From Nesterenkonia sphaerica (lineage in GTDB: Bacteria; Actinomycetota; Actinomycetes; Actinomycetales; Micrococcaceae), in NCBI RefSeq assembly GCF_005771565.1, contig NZ_VAWA01000019.1, positions 1 through 39,002 of the forward strand: a DNA stretch of 39,002 nucleotides, written 5' to 3'. Position 1 is the stretch's first letter, and each line of letters opens with the position of its first letter. The notes beneath the pieces are model-generated. The model made no database searches, had not been told where the DNA came from, and saw nothing but the letters and a program-made list of their open reading frames with translations. The position numbers were made by a program, and so were the translations under genes. Positions 1,801-38,058 of the stretch are shown here, one piece after another.

Positions 1801-2979
1801 ATGGCGTCTTCGCCTTCAGACTACAAACTGTCCTTCGGCCTTTGGACCGTCGGCTGGACAGCGCAGGACCAGTTCGGCTCCTCCTCTCGTCCTGCGTTCG
1901 AGCCCTGGGAATACCTGCCCAAGCTCAAAGAGGCCGGGGCTTCCGGAGTGACGTTCCACGATGACGACGTCGCCCCGTTCGGCACTGACGACACCGAGCG
2001 GGAGAAGTACTTCTCCCGGTTCAAAGAGGCGGCAGACCAGGTGGGCCTCAAAGTAGAAATGCTGACCACCAACACTTTCTCCCACCCCGTCTTCAAAGAC
2101 GGCGGACTGACCTCCAACGACCGGTCTGTCCGCCGGTTCGGCCTGCGGAAACTGCTGCGCAACGTGGACCGGGCAGCGGAGTTCGGTGCCGAGACGTTCG
2201 TCATGTGGGGCGGCCGCGAAGGCTCGGAGTATGACAACGCCAAGGACCTCAACGCTGCCCATGCTCGCTATGCAGAGGGCATTGACACGGTGGCCTCCTA
2301 CATCAAGGAGAAAGGCTACAACTTACGCATCGGCCTGGAGCCGAAGCCCAATGAGCCGCGCGGCGACATCCTTCTTCCGACTATCGGGCACGCACTAGGC
2401 TTCATCGCTGAGTTGGAACACGGTGACATTGTGGGGCTGAACCCAGAGACCGGACACGAGCAGATGGCGGGGCTGAATTTCACTCATGGCATCGCACAGG
2501 CACTCTGGGCCGGCAAACTGTTCCACATTGACCTCAACGGTCAGCGTTCGATCAAGTATGACCAGGACCTGGTGTTCGGCCATGGTGACCTGACTTCGGC
2601 TTTCTTCACCATTGACCTGCTGACCAATGGCTTTCCCAATGGTGGACCGACGTACGACGGCTGGCTGCACTTCGACTACAAGCCCTCCAGAACTGACTAC
2701 GTGCAGGGAATCTGGGACTCCGCCAGGGCTAACACCGAGATGGTCACCATGCTTGCCGACAAGGCGAAAGCCTACCGCGCTGACCCTGAGGTGCAGGCTG
2801 CGTTCGAGACGGCCGGCATCTTTGACCTGGCCGAGCCTACCCTTGCTGAAGGTGAGTCCCTCAGCGATCTCCTGGCGGATCCCTCAGCCTATGAGCAGTT
2901 TGACGTGGAAAAGGCAGCAGAACGGAACTTTGGCTTTGTGCAGCTGAACCAACTGGCGCTGAAGCACCTAATCGGCTGA
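1801..2979 (+). CDS. xylA: Xylose isomerase
   Basis: A 392-residue protein that converts D-xylose to D-xylulose in the cytoplasm. The length fits the short class I actinobacterial isomerases. The ATG at 1801 is preceded by GGAGGA seven bases upstream; an earlier in-frame start at 1756 lacks such a site. The catalytic segment [10 protein letters not shown] holds H53 and D56. The metal segment [13 protein letters not shown] holds E180 and K182. The histidine and aspartate ligands of F-H-I-D-L-N-G and F-G-H-G-D-L are also present. xylB follows after 45 bp, and the two are presumably co-transcribed under the divergent ROK repressor. Confidence 0.97.
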
Positions 2980-3024
2980 GCCCCCAGACTGGACCGCCCG
3001 CACCACGCTACTAAAGGAGTTCCT

Positions 3025-4467
3025 GTGACGCTCGTCGCCGGCATCGATTCCTCCACACAGTCCTGCAAGGTGGTGATCCGGGAGGCCGACAGCGGACGGC
3101 TTGTCCGCTCCGGGTCCGCGCAGCATCCTGAAGGCACAGAGGTGGACCCACACGCGTGGTGGGAGGCGCTGCTTGGCGCGATCGACGCCGCAGGTGGGCT
3201 AGGCGACGTCGCCGCCGTTGCCGTGGGTGGCCAGCAGCACGGCATGGTGGCGCTAGATGCCTCCGGCGAGGTCATTCGTGACGCTCTGCTGTGGAACGAC
3301 ACCCGTTCCGCTGAGGCGGCGGAGCAGCTGGTCAATGAGTACGGAGAAGGAGCCAGGGGCAAAGCGACCTGGGCTCGGATGGTGGGCTCAGTCCCGGTGG
3401 CATCGCTGACAATCACCAAGCTGCGCTGGCTGGCAGATACCGAGCCGGAGAACGCGGGACGAGTCGCAGCCGTGGCTCTTCCTCACGACTGGCTGACCTG
3501 GAAGATGTCCGGCTCCCACCATCTGGCGGACCTGGTCACCGACCGTTCGGAGGCCTCGGGGACTGGGTACTTTGACCCGTCGACAGGTGAATACCGGTAT
3601 GAGCTGCTGGCCTGTGCTCTGCGGATACCTCAGGCGCAGGCTCGCAGCGTGGTGCTTCCGCGTGTGGCCGCTCCAGGGGAAGCTGTGGGCTCCGGCGACT
3701 CTTCACGCGGCTGGGGACACCTGGTACTGGGCCCCGGGGGCGGAGATAACGCCATGGGCGCGCTCGGGGTCGGGATGAGCACCGGGGATGTCTCTATCTC
3801 CCTCGGTACCTCCGGAGTGGTCGCCGCAACCTCCCCCACGCCGGTGCAGGACCCCACCGGGAAAATCGCCGGCTTTGCCTCCGCCACAGGGGAATTCCTG
3901 CCCCTGGCAGTGACGCTCAACGGCTCCCGGGTGCTCGACGGAGCCTGCCGGATGCTCGGGGTTAATCACCGCCAGTTGGCCACACTGGCGCTGGCTGCAG
4001 AGCCGGGAGCACATGGGATGACTCTGGTCCCGTACCTCGAGGGCGAACGCACCCCGAATCTGCCACACGCCACGGGCTCCCTCCTGGGCATGTCCCTGGC
4101 TTCGATGAACCCCCAGGACGTGGCCCGGGCTGCCGTGGAGGGGCTCTTGTGCCTAGTGGCCGACGGCCTCAAAGCGATGACCGATATGGGCGTCCCGGTG
4201 AACTCCATCCGGCTGATCGGCGGGGCGGCCAAGAACCCGGCCGTCCAGCAGATTGCACCGGCGATTTTGGAACGCGACATTTTGGTCCCGGGAGCCGGGG
4301 AGTATGTGGCCGACGGCGCCGCGCGTCAGGCCGCTTGGGTGCTGGCAGGCTCGGCCACCCCACCTGAATGGGAGACTTCTGAGGTCACCGTCTGCACTGC
4401 TGAGCCCACACAGTTCGTCCGCGAGCGCTACAGTCAACGCCGCCATCTCTTTGCCGAAGGCCGCTGA
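3025..4467 (+). CDS. xylB: Xylulokinase
   Basis: A 480-residue FGGY-family kinase that phosphorylates D-xylulose to xylulose 5-phosphate for the pentose phosphate pathway. The N-terminal ATPase-fold segment G-I-D-S-S-T-Q-S-C-K is at residues 6-15, followed by G-G-Q-Q-H-G-M-V (68-75) and L-W-N-D-T-R-S. The catalytic aspartate is D241 in G-G-G-D-N-A-M-G. The adenosine-binding region G-G-A-A-K-N-P lies near the C terminus. The start is GTG with AAAGGAG just upstream. It ends 30 bp from the convergent GH3 gene. Confidence 0.96.
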   Translation: MTLVAGIDSSTQSCKVVIREADSGRLVRSGSAQHPEGTEVDPHAWWEALLGAIDAAGGLGDVAAVAVGGQQHGMVALDASGEVIRDALLWNDTRSAEAAEQLVNEYGEGARGKATWARMVGSVPVASLTITKLRWLADTEPENAGRVAAVALPHDWLTWKMSGSHHLADLVTDRSEASGTGYFDPSTGEYRYELLACALRIPQAQARSVVLPRVAAPGEAVGSGDSSRGWGHLVLGPGGGDNAMGALGVGMSTGDVSISLGTSGVVAATSPTPVQDPTGKIAGFASATGEFLPLAVTLNGSRVLDGACRMLGVNHRQLATLALAAEPGAHGMTLVPYLEGERTPNLPHATGSLLGMSLASMNPQDVARAAVEGLLCLVADGLKAMTDMGVPVNSIRLIGGAAKNPAVQQIAPAILERDILVPGAGEYVADGAARQAAWVLAGSATPPEWETSEVTVCTAEPTQFVRERYSQRRHLFAEGR

Positions 4468-19026: not shown

Positions 19027-19237
19027 GGGATCTCCTTTCGCTCGGGAACGGTACACACCTGACGCTACCGTCGTGATCACCACATGTCACCAGGTCAGAG
19101 CACACTCACAGCCAATCGTGAGTCGTTCTCCGGGTTCTACAAAGCTAGGCTGAGGCCACCCGCGGCAGTCTGGGAGTCCGCCGGGAAAACGGTACGGCCT
19201 CCTCCTCTCCCGGCGGAACTTGCTAATGTGGTCAGGG

Positions 19238-19762
19238 ATGAATGCCGACGACAGCTCTGCCCACGCAGATGAACTCATAATCCTCCGTGCCCCTACGGTG
19301 GCCGACGGTGCGGACCTCTGGCGGCTTGCCAAGGGGACCGGAGTGCTGGACACCAACACGCCGTACGCGTACCTCCTATGGGCACGGGACTTTGCTTCCT
19401 CCAGCGTGATCGCCGATGTGGAAGCAGAACCAGCAGGATTTATCTCCGGGTATCGCAAGCCGTCGGACCCGGAGACGCTGTTCATCTGGCAAGTGGCTGT
19501 GGACTCGGCATTCCGTGGCCGAGGTTTGGCGAAGAAGATGCTCTTCGAGTTGGTTCAGCGCACTGGCGCGACCCGCTTGGAGACGACCATCACCGCAGAC
19601 AATGATGCGTCTATCGCGTTGTTCACCGCCCTGGCGCGGGAACATGGCACGGAGATCGAGAGGCGATCCCTGTTCACCGAGGACCTCTTCCCCTCAGCGG
19701 AAGAGTCCGGCGAGGCTCATGCCGCAGAGGACCTCTACATCGTAGAGCCCCTGAACCGCTGA
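19238..19762 (+). CDS. ectA: L-2,4-diaminobutyrate N-gamma-acetyltransferase
   Basis: A 174-residue GNAT enzyme, second step of ectoine synthesis, which acetylates diaminobutyrate. The family opening I-L-R-A-P-T-V-A-D-G is followed by L-D-T-N-T-P-Y-A-Y-L-L. The acetyl-CoA-binding loop is V-D-S-A-F-R-G-R-G-L-A-K-K-M. T-T-I-T-A-D-N-D-A-S-I-A-L-F is diagnostic of EctA. The start is uncertain among 19226 and 19238. The ~210-bp upstream gap holds an ACTCAC/GTGAGT inverted repeat (19104-19123) that could be regulatory. ectB follows after 47 bp. Confidence 0.95.
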   Translation: MNADDSSAHADELIILRAPTVADGADLWRLAKGTGVLDTNTPYAYLLWARDFASSSVIADVEAEPAGFISGYRKPSDPETLFIWQVAVDSAFRGRGLAKKMLFELVQRTGATRLETTITADNDASIALFTALAREHGTEIERRSLFTEDLFPSAEESGEAHAAEDLYIVEPLNR

Positions 19763-19809
19763 CCTCACCCATCGTTCACCACTAGTAAGTAAGAGGACTG
19801 AGAGAGACT

Positions 19810-21096
19810 ATGGCTACTGACATTTTTGAGACCCGCGAATCCCAGGTGCGCAGCTACAGCAAGAACTGGCCCGCCGTGTTCGACAAGGCGGAGGGCTGCT
19901 ACCAGTTCACAGAGAGCGGATCCCGCTATCTGGACTTCTTCTCCGGGGCCGGGGCGCTCAATTACGGACACAACCACCCCGAGCTGCGGGACCTGGTGGT
20001 GGACTATGTGGCCAACTCCGGCGTCACTCACTCCATGGATATGAACACCCCGGCCAAGCGGCGGTTCCTCGAAACCTTTGAACGGGTCATTCTGGAGCCC
20101 AGAAACCTCGACTACAAGGTCATGTTCCCCGGTCCCACCGGCACGAACACCGTGGAGGCCGCACTGAAGCTGGCCCGCAAAGTGACCGGCCGGCAGCACA
20201 TCCTGTCCTTCACCAACGCCTTCCATGGGATGACCCTCGGCGCACTCTCCGTCACGGGCAACTCCATGAAGCGCAAGGGTGCAGGCATCCCGCTGACCAA
20301 CTCCTCGAAGATTCCCTACGACGACTACTTCGACGGCGACATTCCTGACTTCCTCTGGTTGGAGAAGGTGCTGGAAGACTCCGGCTCCGGAGTGGACAAG
20401 CCAGCAGCTGTCATCGTGGAGACCGTGCAGGGCGAGGGCGGACTCAACGCCGCTCGCATGGAGTGGCTGAGAGGATTGGCCAACCTGCTGCGCCGGCACA
20501 ACATCCTGCTTATCGTCGACGACGTCCAAGCCGGGTGCGGGCGGACCGGCACCTTCTTCAGCTTCGAAGAGGCCGGGATCGTGCCGGATATTGTCTGCGT
20601 CTCAAAGTCCATCTCCGGCTACGGCCTCGCCATGGCGCTGACTCTGTTCAAGCCGCAGCTGGATGTGTGGGAGCCCGGGGAGCACAATGGCACATTCCGC
20701 GGCAACAACCTGGCATTCGTCACCGCAGCGCGGGCCTTGGAGCTGTTCTGGTCGGATGACTCCTTCCAGAAGGAGCTTGCCGGGAAGATCGATGAACTGC
20801 ACGCCGGGATGGCTAAGATCGCCGAGCATGTCAAGGGTGCGGGCATCCGCGGCCGCGGGTTCCTCTCCGGCATCTATTTCCCCGACGCTGACACCGCTGG
20901 CAAGGTTGCCGCCGAGGCGTATAAGCGCAATATGCTGGTCGAGACATCCGGGCCCAAGGACGAAGTCATCAAGCTCATGCCTCCGCTGAACATCGGCTCT
21001 GAGGACCTCCAGAAGGGCCTGCAGATCCTGGAAGAGTCCGTGCTGGCCGCCACCGGTCAGCTCGGCGAACCCAGCCGACTGCGTCCGCCGCACTGA
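19810..21096 (+). CDS. ectB: Diaminobutyrate-2-oxoglutarate transaminase
   Basis: A 428-residue class III PLP aminotransferase that makes L-2,4-diaminobutyrate from aspartate semialdehyde with glutamate as donor, the first committed step to ectoine. Conserved blocks are [38 protein letters not shown] and the PLP-lysine segment [10 protein letters not shown]. Length matches EctB. It lies between ectA and ectC, in the usual order. Confidence 0.97.
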
Positions 21097-21134
21097 GGAC
21101 CCCCACACGCTTTCACGAACTGAACGGAGAATCC

Positions 21135-21527
21135 ATGTACACACTGCACATCGATGACCTCAACGGCACCGATCGTGACATCCAGACCCCCAATTGGCGC
21201 TCACGCAGGATGGTGCTGGGGAAGGAGAAGGTCGGCTTCTCCCTCCACGAGACCACTCTCCACCCGGGTACCGACAACGAATTCTGGTACGCCAACCACG
21301 TGGAGGCTGTCTACTGCGTGGGGGGCAAGGGCAAGCTGACCAACCTCGAAACCGGTGAGGAGCACCAGGTCACGGACGGGTTCCTGTACCTCCTGGACGG
21401 CCACGAGAAGCACCGGTTGCAGGTGGAGGAAGAGCTGCGCATGGTCTGCGTCTTCAACCCCCCGGTCACCGGGCGTGAAGTCCACGACGAGAACGGCGTC
21501 TACCCCTTGGTGGTCGAAGAGGACTGA
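21135..21527 (+). CDS. ectC: L-ectoine synthase
   Basis: A 130-residue cupin that closes N-gamma-acetyl-diaminobutyrate to ectoine. Diagnostic segments are R-M-V-L-G-K-E-K-V-G-F-S-L-H-E-T-T, E-F-W-Y-A-N-H-V-E-A-V-Y-C-V and the C-terminal cupin motif with L-L-D-G-H-E-K-H. CGGAGA precedes the ATG. A hairpin terminator follows, so the operon ends here. No ectoine hydroxylase gene (ectD) and no specialised aspartokinase gene accompany it. Confidence 0.97.
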   Translation: MYTLHIDDLNGTDRDIQTPNWRSRRMVLGKEKVGFSLHETTLHPGTDNEFWYANHVEAVYCVGGKGKLTNLETGEEHQVTDGFLYLLDGHEKHRLQVEEELRMVCVFNPPVTGREVHDENGVYPLVVEED

Positions 21528-23690: not shown

Positions 23691-24887
23691 GTGACCCGCC
23701 CCACCCCAGCGCCCCCCACCACCGTGGTCTGGGACCCCCAGCTGCTGAGTCACCGCTTCACGGCCTCCCACCCCATGGATCCGGTGCGCCTGGAGCTGAC
23801 CGAACGGCTCAGCCGCGATCTGGGCATTTTCGACGCCGCCCACCTCGCCGTTGCTGGCCCGGACATCGCCGACGACGACGCCCTCGCCACCGTCCACGAC
23901 CGTGACTACATCTCCGCTGTCCGCGCCTGCTCCACCTCTGGTGAGCCGGCGTCGGCACACGGACTCGGCACTGAGGATGTGCCGGTCTTCGCTGATATGC
24001 ACACCAGTGCGGCGCGCATCGCCGGTGGCACGCTGCACTTGGCTGAGGAGTTACTCTCTGGCCGCACCCTCCACGGGGTGAACTTCGCCGGCGGGATGCA
24101 CCACGCCTCCCGTGCCCACGCCAGCGGCTTCTGCATCTACAACGACGCCGCACTAGCTATCCAGCACCTGCTCGACAACGGCACCAGACGGGTCGTCTAC
24201 ATTGATGTGGACGCCCACCACGGGGACGGCACCCAAAGCATCTTTTACACCGACCCCCGGGTGATGACCATCTCGCTCCATCAGAGCGGCGTCAGCCTCT
24301 ACCCCGGCACCGGCTTTCCCAACGAGTCCGGCACTGGTGAGGCCCTCGGCACCTCGGTCAATATCGCCCTGCCTGCCGGCACCGGCGATGCCGGGTTCCT
24401 CCGCGCGTTCCACGCCGTGGTGCCAGCCCTGGTCAGAGCCTTCGACCCAGAGGTGCTGGTCACCCAGCACGGCTGTGACTCCCACGCCGATGACCCGCTG
24501 ACCGATCTCAATATGAGCGTCGACGGTCAGCGCCAGCTTGCCCTGGATATCAGCCAACTGGCCGAAGAGGTCACCGAAGACCGGTGGATCGCCACCGGTG
24601 GCGGGGGCTACAGCATCTACCAGGTGGTGCCGCGGGCCTGGGCGCACCTGACCGCAGTGGCCGCCGGCGCCCCCGTACCGCTGAGCACACCGACCCCCAT
24701 CAGCTGGCGGGAATACGTCCAGTCCACATTCGGGGTCTCCGCCCCCCAGAGGATGCACGACGACGTCCAATTGTGGTGGAGGACCTGGGAGCTGGGCTAC
24801 GACCCGGAAGACTCTGTGGATCGCGCGATCATTCAAACCCGCCGGGAAATCTTCCCCCTGCACGGGCTCGACCCCTGGTTCGACTGA
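23691..24887 (+). CDS. AcuC / class II histone-deacetylase-like amidohydrolase
   Basis: A 398-residue zinc amidohydrolase of the arginase/deacetylase fold. Catalytic G-G-M-H-H-A has H137 and H138. The zinc segment Y-I-D-V-D-A-H-H-G-D-G has D174 and H176. Q-H-G-C-D-S-H-A-D-D-P-L has the third ligand, in the AcuC pattern, and G-G-G-G-Y supplies the Tyr. In Bacillus AcuC deacetylates acetyl-CoA synthetase. No acuA/acsA genes are near; instead it lies 11 bp after ktrA, downstream of ectABC. A role on acetylated small amines or proteins in osmotic stress is possible but unproven. Confidence 0.9.
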   Translation: MTRPTPAPPTTVVWDPQLLSHRFTASHPMDPVRLELTERLSRDLGIFDAAHLAVAGPDIADDDALATVHDRDYISAVRACSTSGEPASAHGLGTEDVPVFADMHTSAARIAGGTLHLAEELLSGRTLHGVNFAGGMHHASRAHASGFCIYNDAALAIQHLLDNGTRRVVYIDVDAHHGDGTQSIFYTDPRVMTISLHQSGVSLYPGTGFPNESGTGEALGTSVNIALPAGTGDAGFLRAFHAVVPALVRAFDPEVLVTQHGCDSHADDPLTDLNMSVDGQRQLALDISQLAEEVTEDRWIATGGGGYSIYQVVPRAWAHLTAVAAGAPVPLSTPTPISWREYVQSTFGVSAPQRMHDDVQLWWRTWELGYDPEDSVDRAIIQTRREIFPLHGLDPWFD

Positions 24888-24936: not shown

Positions 24937-24999
24937 AGCGTCTCGGGATGTTGGAAACTCGCCCTACTTTCGAGGGAGTTTCCAACATCCCGAGACGCT
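24937..24999. repeat. Perfect 24-bp inverted repeat with 15-base loop
   Basis: Arms 24937-24960 and 24976-24999 are exact reverse complements (left arm begins AGCGTCTCGGGATG). The element sits 49 bp after the deacetylase and 121 bp before the asparagine-synthetase-like gene. Neither side has a T-tract. A strong terminator hairpin, a REP-like or MITE-like element are possible. The rest of the 233-bp gap shows no gene. Confidence 0.85.
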
Positions 25000-25120: not shown

Positions 25121-26641
25121 ATGTCAGCGATTGTCGCCGCACACGGACCCACTGATGAGGGCCTCGGCCCGCGGATGTTGGGGAGAATGGCACACCGGGG
25201 CCCGGACGGCTCCCAGTCCCGCCAGGTGGGTGACTCCTGGCTCGGCTCCCAATACCTCTCCATCACCGACCCCGAGGGGGGCGCCCAACCGCTCGGCGAC
25301 GTCCAACAGTCGGTGTGGCTGGTGGGTGACGGACGGATCTACAACTACCGCCGGGTCCGCCAGGAGCTGGGTGAGGATCGGTTCCGCACCCGCTCGGACC
25401 TCGAGGCCGCCCTGCAGCTCTACCTGGAACGGGGCCTGCCGGCCTTCAGCCAGCTGTGGGGCAACTTTGCTCTGGTACTTGCCGCCGAGGACGGCCGATT
25501 CGTCGCGACCCGGGACGCTTTGGGCATCGCCCCGCTGTACTGGGCAAAGCGCGGCGAGACTGTCCTCTTCGCCTCGGAGCTCAAAGCCTTCGACGACGAG
25601 TGGCGGCCCGCGGTGGAGCCCTTCCCTCCCGGTCACGTGTGGACTCCCGAGGGCGGCTTGATCACCGGTCCTACGTTCCCCGGCACTACACCGGTGCTGC
25701 TCAACAGTCGCGCCCCGTATGAAGAACCCCCGGCGTGGGTCTTCGATGCCCTGCGGGACACCGTGATCCGTGCGGTGGAGCGCAGCCTCGATGCAGCGGT
25801 GCCGGTCGGCGTGCTTCTGTCCGGAGGTGTGGACTCGAGCATCGTCACCGCCGTGGCGGCGAAGCTTGCAGCTGACCGCGGAATGACGATCCCGACCTTC
25901 GCAGTGGGAATGCAGGACAGCGGAGACCTGCAAGCTGCCCGAATGGTGGCCGAGCACGCAGGCACAGACCACCATGAGCTGACCTATACGGCCGACGACG
26001 CCATCGCCCTGGTCCCGCAGATTGTGGCTGAGCTGGAATCCTTCGACCCCACCCTGGTGCACAGTGCAGTGCCGCACCATATGGTCAGCGAACTGGCAGC
26101 CCGTCATGTCAAAGTTGTCTTGGCTGGTGAAGGTGCCGACGAACTCTTTGCCGGCTACGCCCACTACGCGGAGCACAAGACCGGGGCCGCGCTGCATGAA
26201 GACCTGCTGTCCACCATTGAGGGTATGCACATCGGTGGCCTACAGCGGGTGGACCGGGTGGCGGGCGCCCACGGGCTCGAGCCCCGGGTGCCGTTCCTGG
26301 ACTTGGATGTGGTGGAGCTGGCATTGGCCCTGCCCCCGGAGTGGAAGCTGACCGGGCCTGATCGGCCAGCCAAGTGGATGCTGCGCCGGGCGTTCGACGG
26401 CTGGCTGCCCGATGAGGTGCTCTGGCGCCGCAAGGAACAGTTCGGTCAGGGCACGGGCATGAACGAGGTGCTGCGTGAGCACTTTGAGCACGCGGCCACC
26501 GAGCAGGACCTGCGTGAAGAGGCCGACGTGGTGGACCCACCGCTGCGGACCCGGGAAGAGCTGGCCTACTACCGGATGTTCACTGACACTTTGCCCGGCA
26601 TCAACGTGGGCCGCACCATCGGCCGCTTTGTGGAGGCCTGA
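25121..26641 (+). CDS. Asparagine-synthetase-like protein with degenerate glutaminase site
   Basis: A 506-residue AsnB-family protein. The N-terminal Ntn domain (~1-200) keeps H-R-G-P-D-G and I-Y-N-Y. However, the nucleophile at residue 2 is Ser, the Arg of R-L-S-I-V-D is Tyr (45), and the N-G-E motif is D-G-R (70-72). Only the Asp of S-D-L-E (93) is kept. The whole protein has no cysteine. The C-terminal synthetase domain is intact: S-G-G-V-D-S-S (234-240) and G-E-G-A-D-E-L-F-A-G-Y (336-346). AGGGA precedes the ATG, and no alternative start restores Met-Cys. It should adenylate a carboxylate but take ammonia or another amine, as in beta-lactam-synthetase-type members. Product unknown. Confidence 0.88.
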   Translation: MSAIVAAHGPTDEGLGPRMLGRMAHRGPDGSQSRQVGDSWLGSQYLSITDPEGGAQPLGDVQQSVWLVGDGRIYNYRRVRQELGEDRFRTRSDLEAALQLYLERGLPAFSQLWGNFALVLAAEDGRFVATRDALGIAPLYWAKRGETVLFASELKAFDDEWRPAVEPFPPGHVWTPEGGLITGPTFPGTTPVLLNSRAPYEEPPAWVFDALRDTVIRAVERSLDAAVPVGVLLSGGVDSSIVTAVAAKLAADRGMTIPTFAVGMQDSGDLQAARMVAEHAGTDHHELTYTADDAIALVPQIVAELESFDPTLVHSAVPHHMVSELAARHVKVVLAGEGADELFAGYAHYAEHKTGAALHEDLLSTIEGMHIGGLQRVDRVAGAHGLEPRVPFLDLDVVELALALPPEWKLTGPDRPAKWMLRRAFDGWLPDEVLWRRKEQFGQGTGMNEVLREHFEHAATEQDLREEADVVDPPLRTREELAYYRMFTDTLPGINVGRTIGRFVEA

Positions 26642-26677: not shown

Positions 26678-27616
26678 TCAGTCGATGAATCCCTGCTCAG
26701 TCAGCCAATCCTCGGCGACGTCGCGGGGATCCTCCCCAGCGGTATCCACCCGGCCATTGAGCTCCATGACGACTTCGTCAGTCAGTGCTTCACTGACCGG
26801 CTGGTGAAGCTCCTCAATGACGGGGTACTCATCCAGCGTCTCCTGACGCAGCGTGAGTGCGCCCTCATAGGGGACGAAGAAGTCCTGGTCATCGTCGAGG
26901 ACGACCAGATCGTTGGCATCGATTCGCGCATCGGTCGAGAAGACTTCGCCGAACTCACAGGAGTCGCCGACCTGCGGGTAGATCAGGTTCAGGTCCAACT
27001 CCACGGCTTGGAAATCAACGTCGTATGCCTCCTCGAGTCCGGGCAGCCCGTCATCGCGGTTGATGAACTCCGAGGCGGCACACAGGCGGTTCTGGTCGGG
27101 GTTCTCGTCAATGAAGTCGGCGGCATCGGTCACAGTGCTGAGACCGTGTTCGCCAGCGAAGTCCTCCGTGACCGCGATCCGGTAGGTGTTTTCGAAGTTC
27201 GCCGGCTCCAACCATGCGATGCCGTTCTCCGCGTCTTCTTCCACCACCGCGCTGTAGAGGTCGTCCGGGAGGTCCTCAGTGGTGTTGCCCAGAATGTCCA
27301 CCCACCCGGTGCCGGTGTAGTCCCAGTACAGGTCGATCTCCTCCGACTCCAGCGCCGCGCGGACGGTCGCTGTGCCGGAAATGCCGGTCTGGTCCACAAT
27401 TTCGGCGCCGGCGTCTTCCAGCAGCAGTGCGGAAATATTGCTCAGCACGTGGGATTCGGTGAACTCCTTGGAGCCGACGGTGAACGTTTCACCGGCCAGC
27501 TCGCGGTCGTCGCCGTTGTCCCCGTCGTCGCCGTTGCCTCCGCAGGCGCTCAGGGCCAGCACCAGCGCTAGGCCTCCGCCGGCGACGCGGGTGTTCCATA
27601 CTCTGTTGTTCCTCAT
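26678..27616 (-). CDS. Osmoprotectant-binding lipoprotein, OpuCC/ProX type
   Basis: A 312-residue substrate-binding lipoprotein. The signal ends in the lipobox L-S-A-C with C25, followed by an acidic linker. The mature part opens T-F-T-V-G-S-K-E-F-T-E-S, then Y-W-D-Y-T-G-T-G-W, both typical of the OpuAC/OpuCC family for glycine betaine, choline or carnitine. GAGGAGG precedes the ATG. It is the last gene of the leftward Opu operon, 74 bp after the second permease. Strongly acidic surface composition fits a high-salt exterior. Confidence 0.92.
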   Translation of the reverse strand: MRNNRVWNTRVAGGGLALVLALSACGGNGDDGDNGDDRELAGETFTVGSKEFTESHVLSNISALLLEDAGAEIVDQTGISGTATVRAALESEEIDLYWDYTGTGWVDILGNTTEDLPDDLYSAVVEEDAENGIAWLEPANFENTYRIAVTEDFAGEHGLSTVTDAADFIDENPDQNRLCAASEFINRDDGLPGLEEAYDVDFQAVELDLNLIYPQVGDSCEFGEVFSTDARIDANDLVVLDDDQDFFVPYEGALTLRQETLDEYPVIEELHQPVSEALTDEVVMELNGRVDTAGEDPRDVAEDWLTEQGFID

Positions 27617-27690: not shown

Positions 27691-28467
27691 TCATAGTCCC
27701 CTGGGTCGCAGTGCCTCTTCAATCAGCCCCGCAAGATAGTCGATGAGCAGGGCCAGAATCGCGGTCAGCGCGGCCCCGACGATCTGCACAGTGATGCGGT
27801 TGGTGGACAGCCCGGCCACGATGATGTCACCGAGCCCGCCGGCGTTGATGTATGTCACCAGCGCCGCTGTCCCGACATTGATGACCAAGGCGGTGCGAAT
27901 TCCGGCCAGCATCACCGGTATGGCCAGTGGCAGCTCGATCTTCTGCAACACCGTGCTGCGCGACATGCCCATACCGCGCCCGGCCTCCAACACGGACTTG
28001 TCCACCTGCTCCAGGCCCACCATGGTGTTCAGCAGCACCGGGACGATGGCGTAGAGCACCAAACCGACAATGGCTGCCGCGAAGCCCAGGAACAGGAACG
28101 CCACTGCCAGCAGGACCAGGATGGCGATGGTGGGGACCGCCTGCAGCACGGTGAGCACCGTGACGATGTAGGGCCGGATCCGGCGGGTGAAGGGCCGGGT
28201 GAGCAGTATGCCCAACGGGATCGCAATCAGCAGTGTCAGCGCAGTCGAGACGCCCGTGAGCTGGACGTGCTCCCACACGGCGCGGGTGAGCCGGGCGGCG
28301 TTGAGCGAGCGCTGTTCGATCGAGTCCAGCTCCTGCAGCGACACGTAGATGTAGAGCGCCAGCAGGGAGAGCCCCAGCACTACCGGCATGACCACATAGT
28401 GGCTCAGGCCGGGGGAGCTGGACGCTGCTCTTTCCGGGTGAGCGGTCGGTGGTGCCTGCGTGCTCAT
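27691..28467 (-). CDS. Osmoprotectant ABC transporter permease, second copy
   Basis: A 258-residue permease with about six membrane segments and the family motif G-R-G-M-G-M-S-R-S-T-V-L-Q-K-I-E-L-P, the ATPase-contact loop. It matches OpuCB/OpuCD proteins with an N-terminal extension of ~30 residues. Its ATG overlaps the stop of the ATPase gene by four bases. It pairs with the first permease of the operon as a heterodimeric channel. Confidence 0.92.
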   Translation of the reverse strand: MSTQAPPTAHPERAASSSPGLSHYVVMPVVLGLSLLALYIYVSLQELDSIEQRSLNAARLTRAVWEHVQLTGVSTALTLLIAIPLGILLTRPFTRRIRPYIVTVLTVLQAVPTIAILVLLAVAFLFLGFAAAIVGLVLYAIVPVLLNTMVGLEQVDKSVLEAGRGMGMSRSTVLQKIELPLAIPVMLAGIRTALVINVGTAALVTYINAGGLGDIIVAGLSTNRITVQIVGAALTAILALLIDYLAGLIEEALRPRGL

Positions 28468-29657
28468 GGTTCATTACCCAGACTCGCGCGGGCCTCCGTC
28501 ACGGCTGACGCGCGCATCGATCGGATGGCGTCGTTGATCTGCTCGATGTCCACCACGCCCTGCAGTCGCCCGGCGTCGTCGACCACCAGCGTGACCGCGT
28601 AGCGTGCGGCGATGAGCTCGTTCAATGCGTCACTCAGGGTGGCCCGGGGCTCCACAATCGCTCGCGGAGGCTGCCCGATCTCGCCCAGCGAGGCCCCTTC
28701 GGGTGCGCGTTTCAGGTCCTCGGGACCCACCCAGCGGTGCGGGCGGCCCGCCTCATCGACCACAATCAGGGCACTCTCAGAAGAGTTCCGCAGTATCTCC
28801 CGGGCCTCAGCCAGGGTGGTGGTCGCTGGCGCAGTCGGCCAGGGCCGAGGATCAATATCCCCCACATGGCTGAGGTTGAGACGTTTCAGTGAGGCGCCTC
28901 CACCGATGAACTCAGCGACAAAATCATCCGCAGGTGCCGCCAGGATCTGCTCCGGGGTGTCGTACTGAGCCAGCTCCGAGCCTTCCTTGAAGATCGCAAT
29001 GCGGTCACCCATCTTGATGGCCTCGTCAATGTCGTGGGTGACGAACACGATCGTCTTGCGGACTTCGCTCTGCACCCGCAGGAACTCATTCTGCAACCGG
29101 TCACGGGTGATGGGGTCGATCGCGCCGAACGGCTCATCCATCAGCAACACACTAGGGTCTCCCCCCAGCGCGCGGGCCACCCCGACGCGCTGCTGCTGCC
29201 CGCCTGACAGCTGCTTGGGGTACCGGTGCCGGTAAATCTCCGGGTCCATGTTGACCATGTGGAGCAGCTCGTCGACCCGCGCATCGATCCGGCTCTTCTC
29301 CCAGCCGAGCAGCTTCGGGACCGTGGCCACATTCTCCCCAATGGTCATGTGCGGAAAGAGGCCGGTCTGCTGAATGACGTAGCCGATGCGCCGGCGCAGC
29401 TGGTCGGCGTCAGTCCGGGTGACGTCCTCCCCGTTGAGGATGATCCGGCCAGAGGTCGGCTCAATGATCCGGTTGATCATCTTCATCGTGGTGGTCTTGC
29501 CACACCCGGAGGGACCCACCAGCACCACGATCTCACCTTCGTTGATGTCCAGGTTCAGCCCGTCCACGGCATTGCGCTGCTGCCCCGGGTAGTGCTTGGT
29601 GAGCTTCTCGAGGCGGATCATCACCTGACGGGTCTCATGTGAGTCTGCAGAGGTCAT
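28464..29657 (-). CDS. Osmoprotectant ABC transporter ATPase with tandem CBS domains
   Basis: A 397-residue OpuCA/ProV-type ATPase. Walker A is G-P-S-G-C-G-K-T (48-55), the signature L-S-G-G-Q-Q-Q-R, and Walker B L-L-M-D-E-P-F-G-A-I-D. Two CBS domains occupy the C-terminal ~120 residues. In OpuA such domains sense ionic strength or cyclic-di-AMP, so gating by osmotic state is probable (family knowledge). It overlaps both neighbouring permease genes by four bases. Confidence 0.94.
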   Translation of the reverse strand: MTSADSHETRQVMIRLEKLTKHYPGQQRNAVDGLNLDINEGEIVVLVGPSGCGKTTTMKMINRIIEPTSGRIILNGEDVTRTDADQLRRRIGYVIQQTGLFPHMTIGENVATVPKLLGWEKSRIDARVDELLHMVNMDPEIYRHRYPKQLSGGQQQRVGVARALGGDPSVLLMDEPFGAIDPITRDRLQNEFLRVQSEVRKTIVFVTHDIDEAIKMGDRIAIFKEGSELAQYDTPEQILAAPADDFVAEFIGGGASLKRLNLSHVGDIDPRPWPTAPATTTLAEAREILRNSSESALIVVDEAGRPHRWVGPEDLKRAPEGASLGEIGQPPRAIVEPRATLSDALNELIAARYAVTLVVDDAGRLQGVVDIEQINDAIRSMRASAVTEARASLGNEP

Positions 29658-30298
29658 TGGATTCCTTTGGATGTCGTCAGCTTCCGGGCGGTGTAGAACA
29701 GCAGGTCGAACAGCACCGCCAGGATCATCACGCCCAAGGCCCCGGCCAACACCAGGTTGACCGCCACCGGCGTTCCGACTCGGGCCAGACCGGTGAAGAT
29801 GAGGTCGCCGTATCCGGGTCCGTTGATGATCGCGGCAATGGCGGTGATGCCCAGCAGCACCAGCGTGGTGACCCGGATCCCGGTGATGATCACCGGCCAG
29901 GCCAGCGGCAGTTCGATCCGCAGCAGACGCTGCCGGCGGCTCAGTCCCATCCCCTTGGCTGCCTCCAGCACCGCCGGGTCGACGCCGCGGAGCCCGGTGA
30001 TGGTGTTACGCACCACCGGCATCAGCCCGTAGAGCGTCAGCGCCACCACAGTGGGCGGCCAGCCCAGCCCCAGCGGACCCAACAGCAGGATGAACAGCGC
30101 GAAGGAGGGAATGGTGAGGATTGCTCCGGTGACGGCCAGAACAGTTCCGCGAGCGCGCGCGTTCTGATACGTGGCGATCCCGAGGGTGACGCCGATGATG
30201 GTGGCCAGCAGCACCGAGAGAGCGACGACGCCGGCATGCTCAAGCCCCAGCTCGACCATGTCGGACGAGCGCGTCTCGAGAAACTCAAGAAAACTCAA
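29654..30298 (-). CDS. Osmoprotectant ABC transporter permease, first copy
   Basis: A 214-residue permease, first gene of the leftward Opu operon. M-S-F-L-E-F-L-E-T-R opens the protein in the usual OpuCB way, and the ATPase-contact loop is A-A-K-G-M-G-L-S-R-R-Q-R-L-L-R-I-E-L-P. The start is TTG at 30298 with GGAGG almost adjacent. An ATG at 30259 would remove the conserved N terminus. The 70-bp gap to glsA must hold the operon promoter, though no clear hexamers are seen. Confidence 0.91.
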   Translation of the reverse strand: MSFLEFLETRSSDMVELGLEHAGVVALSVLLATIIGVTLGIATYQNARARGTVLAVTGAILTIPSFALFILLLGPLGLGWPPTVVALTLYGLMPVVRNTITGLRGVDPAVLEAAKGMGLSRRQRLLRIELPLAWPVIITGIRVTTLVLLGITAIAAIINGPGYGDLIFTGLARVGTPVAVNLVLAGALGVMILAVLFDLLFYTARKLTTSKGIQ

Positions 30299-30368: not shown

Positions 30369-32183
30369 CTAGTAGTAGTCCCGAATCAGCGAGGTGACCT
30401 CGCGCATGTACTGATCGACCCGCGTGAAGGCCTCTCTGGTCAGCGCACGCCACATCTCTCCGGCCAGCCGCGGGTCATGCTTTTCCAGATGGTCGATGGT
30501 GGCAGCGCTGAGCACTTTGACCTCCACCGCCCCCTGCGCCCGCTGGGTGACTTCCTGGCGCTGTTCGCGGCCCAGGGCCAGTTCACCGAAGGTCATCCCC
30601 GGTCCCAGCGTGCCGAGCTCAACCCGGTTGCCCTCGGCGTCACGGGCGGTGGTCGTGATCCTTCCGGAGACGATGAAGTACACCCCGTCGAAGCGCTGAC
30701 CCACCCGGCGCACCACCTCAGCGTCCTGGTAGAAGCGTGACTCCATGTGCCGTTCCAGCTCTTCGGCCTCCGCCACCGACAGGGAGGATATTGCCGCAGC
30801 CTCGGTAACGGGCACTTTGCTGGGGGTGGACAGCTCCGGAGAGTGCCGTTGGAGCAGCTGATCCTCGCAATGGGCGATCGCCATGCTCCGCGTGAGGAAA
30901 ATAGTGGACTCCTCTGCACCCACAGCCGTGGCGAGTCGGTCCTCAGGGTCCACAAAGACCAGCTCACGGTGGGCGTGGCGCAGCTGCTTTTCCAGCGTAG
31001 CCAGCATGGTGTGTGACATGGTGCTGACCTCGTCCACCCGACGGGCGTCCAGCACCACAAACTCCACGGCTTCGTCGAGGCTGCTGAGCTCCCGGATCAC
31101 CGACTCTGTCCCGGCGAAGAGCAGGTCACCGGTCAGTTCAACCACGACCCCCCGGTCGCCCAGCTCACGCAGGATGGCCGCCGCCTCATCAGTCCGGCGG
31201 ACCGCCGAGGGCACATAGGCAATCGAGTGGATGGCGCGGATGGCAGAGCGTCCAGCCCGGGCAGAGCGCACAAAGTGCATCTCCATGTCAGCTGACATTC
31301 GCCGGCAGGTGGCCTCGCCACGCACGCTGGTGCCATGGACGTCCAGGGGCGGAGAGAACACGGCCAGGCCAGCCTGCCCCGGCAGCACCGCGAGGGTCCC
31401 CCCGCCGACACCCGACTTCGCAGGCATACCGACCGAGGCGACCCAGTCCCCGGCGTTGTCATACATCCCGGAGGTCATCATCACCGAGAGCACGCGCTCC
31501 ACGGCCTCCACCCCTAGAGCCTCGTGCCCAGTGACCGGGTTGGTCCCACTGTTGGCCAGGGTCGCTGCCATCAGGGACAGGTCCCGGCAGGTGATCTGGA
31601 CAGCACACTGGCGCAGGTACGTTTCCAGCGCGGTGGTGGGGGGCGATTCCAGGAGGCCGAAGGAGCTCATCAGGTAAGCCAGCGCGTGGTTATGGTCGCT
31701 GTTGCGCCGCTCGGCGGTGTAGACCCCCCGGTGACTGGCGAGCTGGCGGTCGGTGAACCCGGAATAGAAGTCGGCAATGCGGTTGATGGCGGTCTTGCCG
31801 CCTGCGCCCTTAATCAGCGACGCCACCGCCAGCGCCCCGGCATTGATCATGGCGTTGGCGGGCCGGCCCGTCTTCGGGGCCAGCGAAATTTCAGTGAAGG
31901 AATCCCCTGAGGGTTCGACGTCGACCTTTGCATCCACGGTCTCCAGCCCATGTTCCTCCAGCGCCAGCCCATAGCTGAAAGGCTTGGACAGCGACTGCAT
32001 GGAGAACTCTTTGCTGGTGGTGCCGACTTCATAGACGTACCCGTCCACAGTGGCCAGGCAGATGCCGAAGTCCTCGGGGTCAACGCGGCGACCCTTGGGC
32101 GCGACGGCATAGGGCTGGCCCTCTCGCAGCTCCGCGATCTCTGCGTGGAGCTGGTGCAGGTACTTCTCAATGGGAGAGTTCAT
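30369..32183 (-). CDS. glsA: Glutaminase fused to STAS and cyclic-nucleotide-binding domains
   Basis: A 604-residue protein starting at the ATG 32183. Residues 1-310 are a serine-dependent glutaminase with the S-x-x-K pair S64/K67 (Q-S-L-S-K-P-F), which makes glutamate and ammonia from glutamine. Residues ~330-430 form a STAS domain and ~465-590 a cNMP-binding/Crp-like sensor domain with G-x-Y-F-I-V-S-G and F-G-E-L-A-L-G. The sensor domains imply regulation by a small ligand or partner protein. No good ribosome-binding site is visible. It lies between the Opu operon and bS22, and may supply glutamate as K+ counter-ion or for proline and ectoine. Confidence 0.92.
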   Translation of the reverse strand: MNSPIEKYLHQLHAEIAELREGQPYAVAPKGRRVDPEDFGICLATVDGYVYEVGTTSKEFSMQSLSKPFSYGLALEEHGLETVDAKVDVEPSGDSFTEISLAPKTGRPANAMINAGALAVASLIKGAGGKTAINRIADFYSGFTDRQLASHRGVYTAERRNSDHNHALAYLMSSFGLLESPPTTALETYLRQCAVQITCRDLSLMAATLANSGTNPVTGHEALGVEAVERVLSVMMTSGMYDNAGDWVASVGMPAKSGVGGGTLAVLPGQAGLAVFSPPLDVHGTSVRGEATCRRMSADMEMHFVRSARAGRSAIRAIHSIAYVPSAVRRTDEAAAILRELGDRGVVVELTGDLLFAGTESVIRELSSLDEAVEFVVLDARRVDEVSTMSHTMLATLEKQLRHAHRELVFVDPEDRLATAVGAEESTIFLTRSMAIAHCEDQLLQRHSPELSTPSKVPVTEAAAISSLSVAEAEELERHMESRFYQDAEVVRRVGQRFDGVYFIVSGRITTTARDAEGNRVELGTLGPGMTFGELALGREQRQEVTQRAQGAVEVKVLSAATIDHLEKHDPRLAGEMWRALTREAFTRVDQYMREVTSLIRDYY

Positions 32184-32372
32184 TGGTAGACATCGTACGG
32201 GGCACCGCCCTCGGCCCTGCCGCCTGCGCCGACTCGGCCGCGCTGCCGCCACCAGCCACCCGGGCCTGCCTGGTTAGCCCTTCACCAGCAGAGTCGGTAG
32301 ACTTCCCCAAGACCTTTTTGGCCTACGGGGCAGGTAGTTGCTCCACCCACCGACGTAAGGACTGTTCACCCT

Positions 32373-34862: not shown

Positions 34863-37800
34863 TTATGCGTGGATGGCGGTCTGTTCGGCCTGGGCGAGCA
34901 CCAGGTCTATAGCGCCTTCTTGGTGGTCTGGTGGATAGCCGTGGACGGCGAGCAATCGTCTGAGTCTGGAGCGCATGCCGGCCTTCACCGACTCCCGGCT
35001 TTGCCAGTCGATGGTGACGGAGGACTGCACAGATTGGACGAGATCAACGGTGATGTCGCGAAGCTTCTCATCACCCATCTCGGTCACCGCCGAACCATTC
35101 TGGGCGAGTGCGTCAAAGAAGGCGAGTTCCCCTACTGAGAGCTGCAGCTGTTCGGCGCGCTGCTGTTCGCCCTTCATCTCCTTGGCTACTTCTACCAGTT
35201 CAGCAATCACTTCGGCAGCGCTGAGGGCTTGGTTGGTGTACTTGTTGACCGCTGCGTCGAGCATTTCGGAGAATTTGCGTCCTTTGACCAGATTGGTGCG
35301 CCGCACGGTTTTGACTTCATCGTTGAGCAGCTTCCGGAGCATGGCCAGGTGGACGTGTTCCTTGTCCTTCTGAGCGGCAAGCCGATTGAGGAAGTCTTCG
35401 TCCAGCAGAGACAGCTCCGGTTTCTCTCTGCCTTCGAACCCGTAGACGTCGATGACCTGGTCGGCGGTGATCGCTTGGTTGACGATCTGACTGATGGCAG
35501 TGTCCATGTCTTCAGCCCCGGCACCGCCGGAACCGGAGTCTGGGGCTTGGAATTTGAGGATTGCTGCCCGCACTGCAGTGAACAAGGCCACGTCGTCCCG
35601 GATGCGGGCCGCTTCATCGCTTGCTCCACAGAGGGCGAAAGCTTTGATCAGCGCAAGGGTCTCATCGAGGAATCTTTCGGTGAGGTTCTTGCCTGCTGAT
35701 GAATCGGCTGCGCCTTGTTCCAGCACGTAGTTGATCACACGCTGATACATCTCAATGCGTAGGGCATCACTCATCTCTGACGTGACCTTGAAGTTGACCC
35801 CGTGCAGCATCGCGCTGACGATCTCGTACTTCTCCTGCATGAAGGCGATCATCTGTTCCAGGGGCACTCCTGTGGTCTCCCGGTCGGAGGGCGAATACTC
35901 GGCCAGAGCGTCTTGGAGCTTGGTGAAGATCCCGATGTAGTCGACAATCAGCCCGCCGGTCTTGTCCTTGTAGCGCCGGTTGACCCGGGCGATGGCCTGC
36001 ATGAGCCCCGCCCCCTGCATCGTTTTGTCCACGTACATGGTGTGCAGGGAGGGCGAGTCGAATCCGGTGAGCCACATATCGCGCACGATCACCAGTTCCA
36101 GCTCATCTGCAGGGTTTTTGGCTCGCGCTTTGAGCTGATTCCGCTGCTTCTTGTCATAGAGATGGGGTTGAAAGTAGGCGGGATCTGCCGCGGAGCCGGT
36201 CATGACGACTTTGATCTTTCCTGCGGAGGGATCCTCGGAATGCCATTCGGGCCGGAGGGCAGTGATTTTCTCGTAGAGCTCCACCGCAATGCGCCGGCTC
36301 ATGGTGACGATCATGGCTTTGCCTGCCAGCTCGTCCCGCCGGGCCTCCCAGTGCTGGACGATGTCGGCGGCCACCAGGTCGAGGCGGGCGTCAGAGCCCA
36401 CTACCGCTTCTAGGCGGGCCCACTTGCTCTTGGCCTTCTGCGCTGCGGACTCTTCGGCTTCTCCGGTGATCTCGTCGGTGAGTTGGTCGAGGGCTTCAAG
36501 ATCTTCTTTGTCCAGGTCGATCTTGGCCAACCGGGATTCGTAGTAGATCCTGACCGTCGCCTCATCGGCCACCGCCTGTGAGAGGTCGTAGACGTCAATA
36601 TATTCGCCGAAGACGGCTTTGGTGGACTTGTCGGTGGATTCGATGGGGGTGCCGGTGAAGCCTAAGTAGGTTGCATGGGGCAGAGCGTCGCGCATGTATT
36701 TCGCGAGCCCCCCGGTGAACTGCCCGCTCTGCTCATTGAACCGAGTCTGCAGACCGTATTGGGAACGGTGGGCCTCATCGGCGACCACCACCACATTGCG
36801 GCGGTCGGTGAGCAGGCGGTCCCCCTGAACTTCTCCCCCGAACTTCTGCAGGGTGGTGAAGATGATGCCTCCGCTGGCCCGGCGTAGTTTGTCGCGGAGG
36901 TCCTCGCGGGTCTCGGCTTGCACAGGCGGTTCGGGGAGCACTGAGGCCGGGGCGAAGACCTCTTCGAAGAGTTGATTATCCAGATCTTGGCGGTCAGTGA
37001 GGAAGACCAAAGTGGGGTTTGCCATCCGTGGGTCGGCCAATATTTTTCCGGCGAAGAAGACCATTTCAAGACTCTTGCCTGAGCCTTGGGTGTGCCACAC
37101 GACTCCTCCGCGCTTATCTCCTGTAGGTGAGGAGGCGACGACGACGGACTCCACTGCCTTGTTCACCGCCCAGTACTGGTGGTATTTGGCCACTCGTTTG
37201 AAGGTGATGTTCTTCGCCTGACCGGTCGGGGTGGAGGTGGTTTCCTCGGAGAAAACGATGAAGTTGGCCAGCAGGTCCAGGAACCGGTGCGGGGTGAAGA
37301 CGCCTTTTATGAGTATGTCCAGGGACGCGGTGCCGGTGATGGTTTCGGTTCCGTCAACGGTCTTCCACGGCGCATAGTGCTCGAATCCGGCGCTGAAGGT
37401 ACCCATGGTTGAGGCGGACCAGTCGCTGATGACGGTCACGGCGTTGGTGGTGAACAGTGAGGGGATGTCTTCACGGTAGGTCTGGACTTGGTTCCACGCA
37501 GATTTGAGGCTCGCCCCCAGCGTCGAGGGACTCTTCAGTTCGAAGAGGGCCACGGGGATACCGTTGAGGAAGGTCAGGATGTCGGGGCGCCGGTCCCGGT
37601 GCTCGATGACGGTGAACTGGTTGACGGCCACCCAGTCATTGGCGTCCGGGTGGTGGAAGTCAATGAGCGCAAGTCGCTTGGTGCGCTGCTGACCGCCCAC
37701 GCTGTAGGTGACGGGGACCCCGTGGATGAGGAACTCGTGTTTGCGCATGTTTTCCAGGATCAGGTCCTGGTGTTCTGTGCGCAGGAACCTTTTGGCCGCT

Positions 37801-38009
37801 TCGCTGTGATGCTCCGCTGTGGCTTCGGGGTTCAGCCGTGCGATTGCCTCCCGGAGTCGGCCTGTGAGGATCGCGTCTTGCCAGTTGTTGCGCTCGGCTT
37901 GCGGGGAGTCGGGGGCGATATCGGGACCATGCAGAGTCTCATAGCCCAGTCGGCGCAGGTGGTCGAGTGCAGCGTTTTCTGCTGTCTCCTCGTTGTAGGC
38001 GTGCCCCAT
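34863..38009 (-). CDS. hsdR: Type I restriction enzyme R subunit, orphan in this window
   Basis: A 1048-residue HsdR. The ATG at 38009 has GGGAGGG upstream. The N-terminal nuclease domain has the P-D-(D/E)-x-K residues D143, E157 and K159 (F-E-L-K). The SF2 motor follows with G-S-G-K-S at 309-313 and D-E-A-H at 411-414, then T-G-F-D-S-P and Q-A-I-A-R-V-N-R-R of motifs V-VI. The C-terminal helical domain is full length. It cuts DNA with HsdM and HsdS, but neither gene is present in the 4 kb to its right or anywhere in the window. By eye the gene is less GC-rich than its neighbours, suggesting transfer. No frameshift is seen. Confidence 0.94.
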   Translation of the reverse strand: MGHAYNEETAENAALDHLRRLGYETLHGPDIAPDSPQAERNNWQDAILTGRLREAIARLNPEATAEHHSEAAKRFLRTEHQDLILENMRKHEFLIHGVPVTYSVGGQQRTKRLALIDFHHPDANDWVAVNQFTVIEHRDRRPDILTFLNGIPVALFELKSPSTLGASLKSAWNQVQTYREDIPSLFTTNAVTVISDWSASTMGTFSAGFEHYAPWKTVDGTETITGTASLDILIKGVFTPHRFLDLLANFIVFSEETTSTPTGQAKNITFKRVAKYHQYWAVNKAVESVVVASSPTGDKRGGVVWHTQGSGKSLEMVFFAGKILADPRMANPTLVFLTDRQDLDNQLFEEVFAPASVLPEPPVQAETREDLRDKLRRASGGIIFTTLQKFGGEVQGDRLLTDRRNVVVVADEAHRSQYGLQTRFNEQSGQFTGGLAKYMRDALPHATYLGFTGTPIESTDKSTKAVFGEYIDVYDLSQAVADEATVRIYYESRLAKIDLDKEDLEALDQLTDEITGEAEESAAQKAKSKWARLEAVVGSDARLDLVAADIVQHWEARRDELAGKAMIVTMSRRIAVELYEKITALRPEWHSEDPSAGKIKVVMTGSAADPAYFQPHLYDKKQRNQLKARAKNPADELELVIVRDMWLTGFDSPSLHTMYVDKTMQGAGLMQAIARVNRRYKDKTGGLIVDYIGIFTKLQDALAEYSPSDRETTGVPLEQMIAFMQEKYEIVSAMLHGVNFKVTSEMSDALRIEMYQRVINYVLEQGAADSSAGKNLTERFLDETLALIKAFALCGASDEAARIRDDVALFTAVRAAILKFQAPDSGSGGAGAEDMDTAISQIVNQAITADQVIDVYGFEGREKPELSLLDEDFLNRLAAQKDKEHVHLAMLRKLLNDEVKTVRRTNLVKGRKFSEMLDAAVNKYTNQALSAAEVIAELVEVAKEMKGEQQRAEQLQLSVGELAFFDALAQNGSAVTEMGDEKLRDITVDLVQSVQSSVTIDWQSRESVKAGMRSRLRRLLAVHGYPPDHQEGAIDLVLAQAEQTAIHA

Positions 38010-38058
38010 GCGCCCTCCCTCAACCACTCAAGCGGTTTTTCACTACTCTACAAGTTAC

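Follow-up and report, generated by a model that had tools for sequence, protein, structure and literature searches.

Introduction

In beta-lactam synthetase (PDB code: 1jgt) and carbapenam synthetase CarA (PDB code: 1q15), both of the AsnB fold, the glutaminase domain has lost its Cys and its glutaminase activity, lasso peptide cyclases carry out an AsnB-like amide formation without external ammonia, and the NAGGN osmolyte pathway employs an AsnB-like enzyme in osmolyte biology. Another protein of this family, here called AsnBx, is encoded at 25121..26641 on the forward strand of a 39,002-nucleotide stretch of DNA from Nesterenkonia sphaerica (contig NZ_VAWA01000019.1, positions 1 to 39,002; this whole stretch is referred to as the window). 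AsnBx carries Ser1, Tyr49, and Asp74 at its glutamine site together with an intact ATP-pyrophosphatase domain. It may well be an AsnB-family amide synthetase that depends on ammonia and belongs to an osmolyte-uptake module, with a neighbouring glutaminase as a possible supplier of the ammonia, a reading to which the sequence comparisons below give a probability of roughly 0.55. No description of a Cys-free AsnB clade or of an AsnB-importer-glutaminase module was found in the open-access literature, as searched by title and start of abstract.

Glutamine site and synthetase domain

The open reading frame begins with ATG and encodes 506 amino acids, none of which is Cys. The fold of the AsnB family spans its entire length, and Pfam matches are found to Asn_synthase (E 6.7e-72) and GATase_7 (E 9.1e-29). 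Aligned with E. coli AsnB from MG1655, whose mature numbering is used throughout, AsnBx shows the changes C1→S, R49→Y, N74→D, and E76→R, with D98, the PP-loop SGGVDSS, and the GEGADEL motif preserved; an earlier note on this DNA, made from the letters alone, had read the site in the same way. Only D98 is thus left of the class II amidotransferase glutamine pocket (R49, N74, E76, and D98), and the N-terminal Cys nucleophile of glutamine-hydrolysing AsnB and class II amidotransferases is replaced by Ser.

These features were followed in a group of 19, made up of the window protein plus 18 relatives (duplicates excluded) that share 61-87% identity with it and come from Nesterenkonia, Georgenia, Brevibacterium, Citricoccus, other Micrococcaceae, and further genomes of the order. 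The searches covered 98 genomes including its own, 396 genomes of the order, and GTDB contigs (20 loci, only part of which belong to the group). Rows removed before counting were L010/L075 (genome G043; Cys-bearing, with an internal gap), L052 (interrupted), L058 (partial, at a contig end), L059 (same contig as L042), and L005, L007, and L008 (the same as L036, L037, and L043). The 19 remaining proteins are of full or nearly full length, with the C-terminus of L047 masked. All have Ser1 and Asp74, and none has Arg49 (Tyr in 15, Asn in two, Phe in two); position 76 is Met in eight, Glu in six, Thr in two, and Arg, Lys, and Gly in one each. Each of the 11 Cys-bearing relatives aligned with them retains C1, R49, N74, and E76. 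The description ‘cysteine-free’ given in the earlier note suits the window protein; it is not a trait of the family, as seven of the 19 members lack Cys and the others have one to three.

The synthetase domain is preserved throughout: the PP-loop SGGxDSS residues S234, D238, and S239, as well as E348, D351, E352, Y357, and K449, are each found in 19/19. Variants E364A, E364Q, and D367A of human asparagine synthetase are inactive according to one report (PMC6748925), and by our reading of the numbering E364 and D367 would correspond to E348 and D351. A Glu-Tyr pair is kept in five enzymes including E. coli AsnB, and its Tyr is essential in PesC, as one report states (PMC13060819); E352-Y357 of AsnBx is taken as this pair, assigned by spacing and not through an alignment with PesC.

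PDB sequence matches of AsnBx include 1jgt (E 1.2e-16) and 1q15 (E 7.2e-14), the two AsnB-fold members without glutaminase activity, and this likeness would suit an enzyme that makes an intramolecular amide (lactam) as they do. Lactam formation has no positive support here and is very improbable. The earlier note had proposed an amide or lactam osmolyte, or the use of free ammonia; this is partly supported, an amide synthetase that uses free ammonia being the reading now favoured.

Probable stepwise decay within the Ser1 clade

A phylum-wide search of 396 genomes with a Cys-bearing relative as query gave 54 places in 49 genomes; up to three candidates were scored per genome, and the counts are lower bounds. 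Ten of the 54 places were not extracted (G653, G509, G781, G673, G679, G574, G805, G714, G728, and the second of G663). Nine more Ser1/Asp74 sequences were obtained, and these retain Arg49, His47, and Glu76. Across the resulting Ser1 clade, S1, D74, G75, and N79 are found in 28/28 and D98 in 27/28 with one gap; R49 is present in 9/9 of the sister branch and gone in 19/19 of the window's branch, within which E76, Y78, and H47 also vary. A sequencing error or a recent loss of Cys, which the earlier note had named as grounds for giving up its reading, is ruled out by Ser1 and Asp74 in all 28 members examined.

A tree of 72 rows was constructed by a quick search with SH-aLRT support, the key columns being left out; duplicates (L106-L108, L111a, L113a, and L115a) and rows that were partial or had a wrong start (L109a and L128a) had been dropped. 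A single change suffices for Ser1 on this tree, where support is 100 for the Ser1 clade of 28 rows, 99 for its nine-row branch, and 100 for the branch of 19 rows that includes the window protein. The simplest reading is a stepwise decay, which suggests the order Cys1/Arg49/Asn74, then Ser1/Arg49/Asp74, then Ser1/Tyr49/Asp74. Four genomes (G609, G758, G733, and G588; L109-L116) each have both a Cys-bearing copy with His324 and a Ser1 copy of the AsnB subfamily. His324 is already present in five Cys-bearing rows, whose position in the tree is uncertain.

The invariance of S1 and D74 across 28 sequences may reflect a remaining role. It is possible to imagine an N-terminal site retooled for an amide donor other than glutamine, with Ser1 as the Ntn nucleophile assisted by Asp74: Ser is able to act in this way in other Ntn hydrolases, a related fold member, 7ylz, bears the name hydroxyamidotransferase, and S1, D74, G75, N79, and nearly always D98 persist in a clade whose derived branch varies at R49, E76, Y78, and H47. 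However, 51 of the 181 N-domain columns (28%) are invariant across the window's 19 sequences anyway, and therefore little weight is placed on S1 and D74; Asp is an unfavourable replacement for Asn at the oxyanion hole, and L009 has lost the D98 region, yet is still linked to the module. Such a retooled site is considered improbable.

The dN/dS ratios of eight pairs are 0.08-0.22, with each domain below 0.3 and dS of 0.4-1.4; AsnBx is under purifying selection. The stepwise differences in glutaminase-site residues between branches might also be expected of a non-catalytic regulator or a decaying gene, but this selection, the synthetase catalytic residues kept in 19/19, and the finding of a single interrupted copy among the 20 GTDB-contig loci (L052, Arthrobacter sp. 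H14) make such an explanation hardly credible. In Arthrobacter sp. H14 the gene is in two pieces, 1-390 and 2929-3450, with about 2.5 kb between them, and importer genes follow.

Association with an importer and a glutaminase

Upstream sequence of 4-10 kb was examined per locus. An OpuC/OsmF-type importer lies within 5 kb of AsnBx in 18 of the 19 loci, and a GlsA-type glutaminase is found beside the module in 16. Usually AsnBx faces the tail of a binding protein-permease-ATPase-permease-glutaminase series; at L072 it follows the binding-protein match in the same direction, at a distance of about 18 bp, and the importer there is only 42-50% identical to that of the window. Binding proteins at least 64% identical to the window's occur in only four of the 98 genomes, all with AsnBx (8/98 match at E ≤ 1e-60).

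In the window all of these partners are on the reverse strand. The OpuC/OsmF-type substrate-binding protein (26678..27616) is tail to tail with AsnBx; its PDB matches start from 2.5e-39 (acetylcholine-sensor binding protein) and also include ProX, EgtUC, and OsmF, and NF049931 gives 158.6 bits, under the cut-off of 400. The first permease (27691..28467) is ChoW/ProW-like, under cut-offs, the ATPase (28464..29657) matches TIGR01186 proV with 353 bits, over the cut-off of 326.6, and the second permease (29654..30298) is ProW-like, under the cut-off. The GlsA-type glutaminase (30369..32252, true start perhaps 32183) carries PF04960 (E 3e-99) together with STAS and cNMP-binding (cNMP_binding) domains; it scores 299.3 bits against TIGR03814, over the cut-off of 255.4, and has the SLSK motif. 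A second glutaminase copy in the same genome is 44% identical.

On the other side, the window has ectABC (19220..21527, forward strand), comprising a GNAT protein (PF00583; 19220-19762), an aminotransferase-like open reading frame at 19810-21096 which we take to be EctB, and an ectoine synthase (PF06339, E 7.4e-55; 21135-21527), and then a histone-deacetylase-family amidohydrolase (23691..24887, forward strand; PF00850, E 4.1e-86). The earlier note set AsnBx between ectABC-ktrAB-deacetylase and the importer, which is right for the window. As for conservation beside ectABC, which it proposed to check, ectABC, presumed ktrAB, and the deacetylase are, within the 4-10 kb of upstream sequence examined, near AsnBx in 2/19 loci only, the window and N. 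natronophila (L034); a tie to ectABC or the deacetylase is thereby ruled out, and it is the importer and the glutaminase that are conserved instead.

Between the deacetylase and AsnBx, positions 24937-24999 hold a perfect 24-bp inverted repeat with a 15-nt loop. One arm has ten matches with up to three mismatches in its own genome (the reversed control has 0), three of them tight inverted pairs; the repeat is a small dispersed palindromic element. Near the end of the window is a type I restriction enzyme R subunit (34863-38027).

The importer in the wider phylum

In the 396 phylum genomes (binding-protein search at E ≤ 1e-60, up to five candidates scored per genome, counts again lower bounds), the AsnB subfamily occurs in at least 49, the binding-protein family in at least 59, and both in at least 35. 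Both lie within 10 kb of each other in at least 17 of the 49 genomes, its own included (Fisher p 3e-23, phylogeny not controlled). Cys-bearing enzymes are among the linked pairs, and therefore the importer link is not confined to enzymes without Cys. In the Ser1/Arg49 branch 4/9 are importer-linked (L112, L119, L126, and L125), several of the other contigs being short. Binding proteins about 40-42% identical (L129-L131) without an AsnB relative in 18 kb are an exception to the association.

Three loci (L158, L129, and L130) gave no binding protein by the extraction pattern. On the binding-protein tree, a single importer clade throughout is ruled out, since the Ser1-linked binding proteins fall at three places, and one clade is formed by the Micrococcales set (16 rows) alone. 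Near the Ser1 enzyme of L125 is a binding protein whose sister is the one beside the Cys enzyme of L109, as though either type of enzyme could stand beside one importer. Aromatic positions that might form a cage for quaternary ammonium, Y97, W98, Y100, W105, Y145, F184, Y198, and F226, are found in 24/24 aligned binding proteins (L072 is not in the alignment), and several of these positions align, at the level of sequence, with aromatics of an acetylcholine/nicotine sensor template, whose cation-pi residues are Tyr65 and Tyr357 (PMC8820738). Ligand residues specific to the AsnBx-linked importer are ruled out, as the YW(D/E)Y motif is also present in 15/15 unlinked binding proteins, extracted by the D.Y..Y.G pattern from 18 tried; ‘unlinked’ means no AsnB match within 10 kb or within the examined stretch, some being on short contigs.

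Nine Cys-bearing loci near an importer (L165-L173) all belong to one family, f34; in 8/9, AsnB has a nitrilase-like gene as its head-to-head neighbour. Neighbours, clustered and scanned by one representative of each cluster (CN_hydrolase for the nitrilase-like gene), include an Fe-type alcohol dehydrogenase in seven, an FAD oxidase in seven, an AttM-type lactonase in four, and a PuuC/BADH-like aldehyde dehydrogenase in three. Such a gene set has the look of a locus for the catabolism of an imported amine or betaine, and an amide-on, amide-off cycle would fit the pairing of AsnB with a nitrilase-like amidase; since all nine are of one family, the gene order may be simply inherited. NadE, found beside five loci, was set aside as a partner and is probably housekeeping.

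Distribution and acceptor side

In the order, 12/396 genomes match at E ≤ 1e-100, ten from the window's group (G344 being a contig-end piece) and two Cys-bearing. AsnBx is present in 2/30 sampled genomes of the same genus and absent from 28/30 (three of the 30 are less than 80% complete). A search of its own genome gave no AsnA match and no AsnRS over the cut-off. Therefore, AsnBx does not appear to be a housekeeping asparagine synthetase; consistent with this, Asn-tRNA would be formed by transamidation. Spread by plasmids was rejected, as the 14 matches at E ≤ 1e-60 from a protein search of 72,556 plasmid records all share 33-35% identity and are named asnB where annotated. The genome has a second PF00733 protein (C34; L074 3538-5271), a divergent 577-586-aa open reading frame with a weak Asn_synthase match. 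Its altered PP-loop (SGGRDS) rules it out as a canonical AsnB, and no PDB relative was found for it at E up to 1.

Acceptor-side residues are changed as well: D384→G, R324→H, and E428→A are each found in 19/19, and S346A/V is likewise fixed in 19/19. In a computed model of the human enzyme, Asp400 (D384 here) helps line the pocket for the amino group of an inhibitor; R324 and E428 would also be part of the aspartate side. Since these E. coli-type residues are not kept, AsnBx may make something other than asparagine.

An ordinary asparagine synthetase that now runs on free ammonia only, with asparagine as amino acid or minor osmolyte, overlaps with the favoured reading and differs from it in the substrate. 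AsnBx scores 339.7 bits against TIGR01536 (glutamine-hydrolysing asparagine synthase), over the cut-off of 267.1, which leaves room for plain asparagine synthesis; against PRK09431 (asparagine synthase B) it scores 431.5, under the cut-off of 499. The four fixed changes (D384G, R324H, E428A, and S346A/V) and the absence of the gene from most of the sampled genomes of the genus argue against asparagine, for which a tight tie to one importer type would be unexpected, and this alternative is regarded as possible but rather unlikely.

Proposed function

The reading of AsnBx as an ammonia-dependent amide synthetase can be potentially described as follows. AsnBx would no longer hydrolyse glutamine, judging from its glutamine-site residues, and the N-terminal Ntn domain would be retained as a scaffold. 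The C-terminal ATP-pyrophosphatase domain would adenylate a carboxylate, which ammonia would then attack; the ammonia may come from the cell pool or from the GlsA-type glutaminase of the same module. With the acceptor-side positions changed across the whole group, the carboxylate is probably something other than plain aspartate. AsnBx would act together with the OpuC-type importer beside it, so that an osmolyte or a quaternary-ammonium compound is its probable substrate or product.

Several observations weigh against this proposal. Besides the TIGR01536 score, the Cys-bearing sisters of AsnBx already carry N384, which makes D384 an imperfect marker of a new substrate. S1 and D74 have not drifted, as those of a purely dead site might, and L009 keeps its linkage without the D98 region. 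L043 has no importer within 10 kb of AsnBx and keeps the glutaminase; L072 and L073 have no glutaminase in the surrounding 19 kb, and at L035 the contig ends first. Genomes G036 and G059 lack AsnBx and have glutaminase homologues of 55-57% identity, and the glutaminase link may represent one evolutionary event. The neighbouring glutaminase as ammonia source, resting on perhaps that one event, is attractive but unproven.

A more elaborate scheme can be drawn, in which the module is a split glutamine amidotransferase for import and amidation: the built-in Ntn glutaminase would have died after Cys1→Ser, an unrelated GlsA-type glutaminase recruited next door would feed ammonia in trans, and an imported, probably quaternary-ammonium, carboxylate would be amidated to a new osmolyte or a catabolic intermediate. 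This full scheme is decidedly unlikely.

Automatic annotation would tend to label AsnBx a glutamine-hydrolysing asparagine synthase, since it passes the TIGR01536 cut-off, and the label is very probably wrong. At positions 1/49/74 the clade provides a natural series in which the glutaminase is lost, from Cys/Arg/Asn through Ser/Arg/Asp to Ser/Tyr/Asp, and this should help in studying the loss of ammonia channelling by amidotransferases. The close link between AsnBx and an osmoprotectant-type importer suggests that bacterial osmolyte metabolism includes an amide still to be characterised.

Comparison with known systems

With E. coli AsnB (PDB code: 1ct9; TIGR01536), AsnBx has in common the two-domain fold, the SGGxDSS PP-loop, and E348, D351, E352, Y357, and K449. 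Unlike the E. coli enzyme, it lacks Cys1, R49, and N74, carries D384G, R324H, and E428A, is 506 rather than 554 amino acids long, and is associated with an importer and with a glutaminase encoded separately. With beta-lactam synthetase and CarA it shares the AsnB fold and a glutaminase domain without its Cys. It falls outside the N-acetylglutaminylglutamine (NAGGN) amidotransferases (TIGR03104; 217.9 bits, under the cut-off of 570.1) and scores 136.4 bits against the lasso peptide cyclase model NF033535, under the cut-off of 525. The nitrile synthetase PesC and the AS-like peptide-amidating enzymes belong to the AsnB family and have the Glu-Tyr pair in common with AsnBx; PesC is able to use ammonia too, its substrates being ribosomal peptides (PMC13060819).
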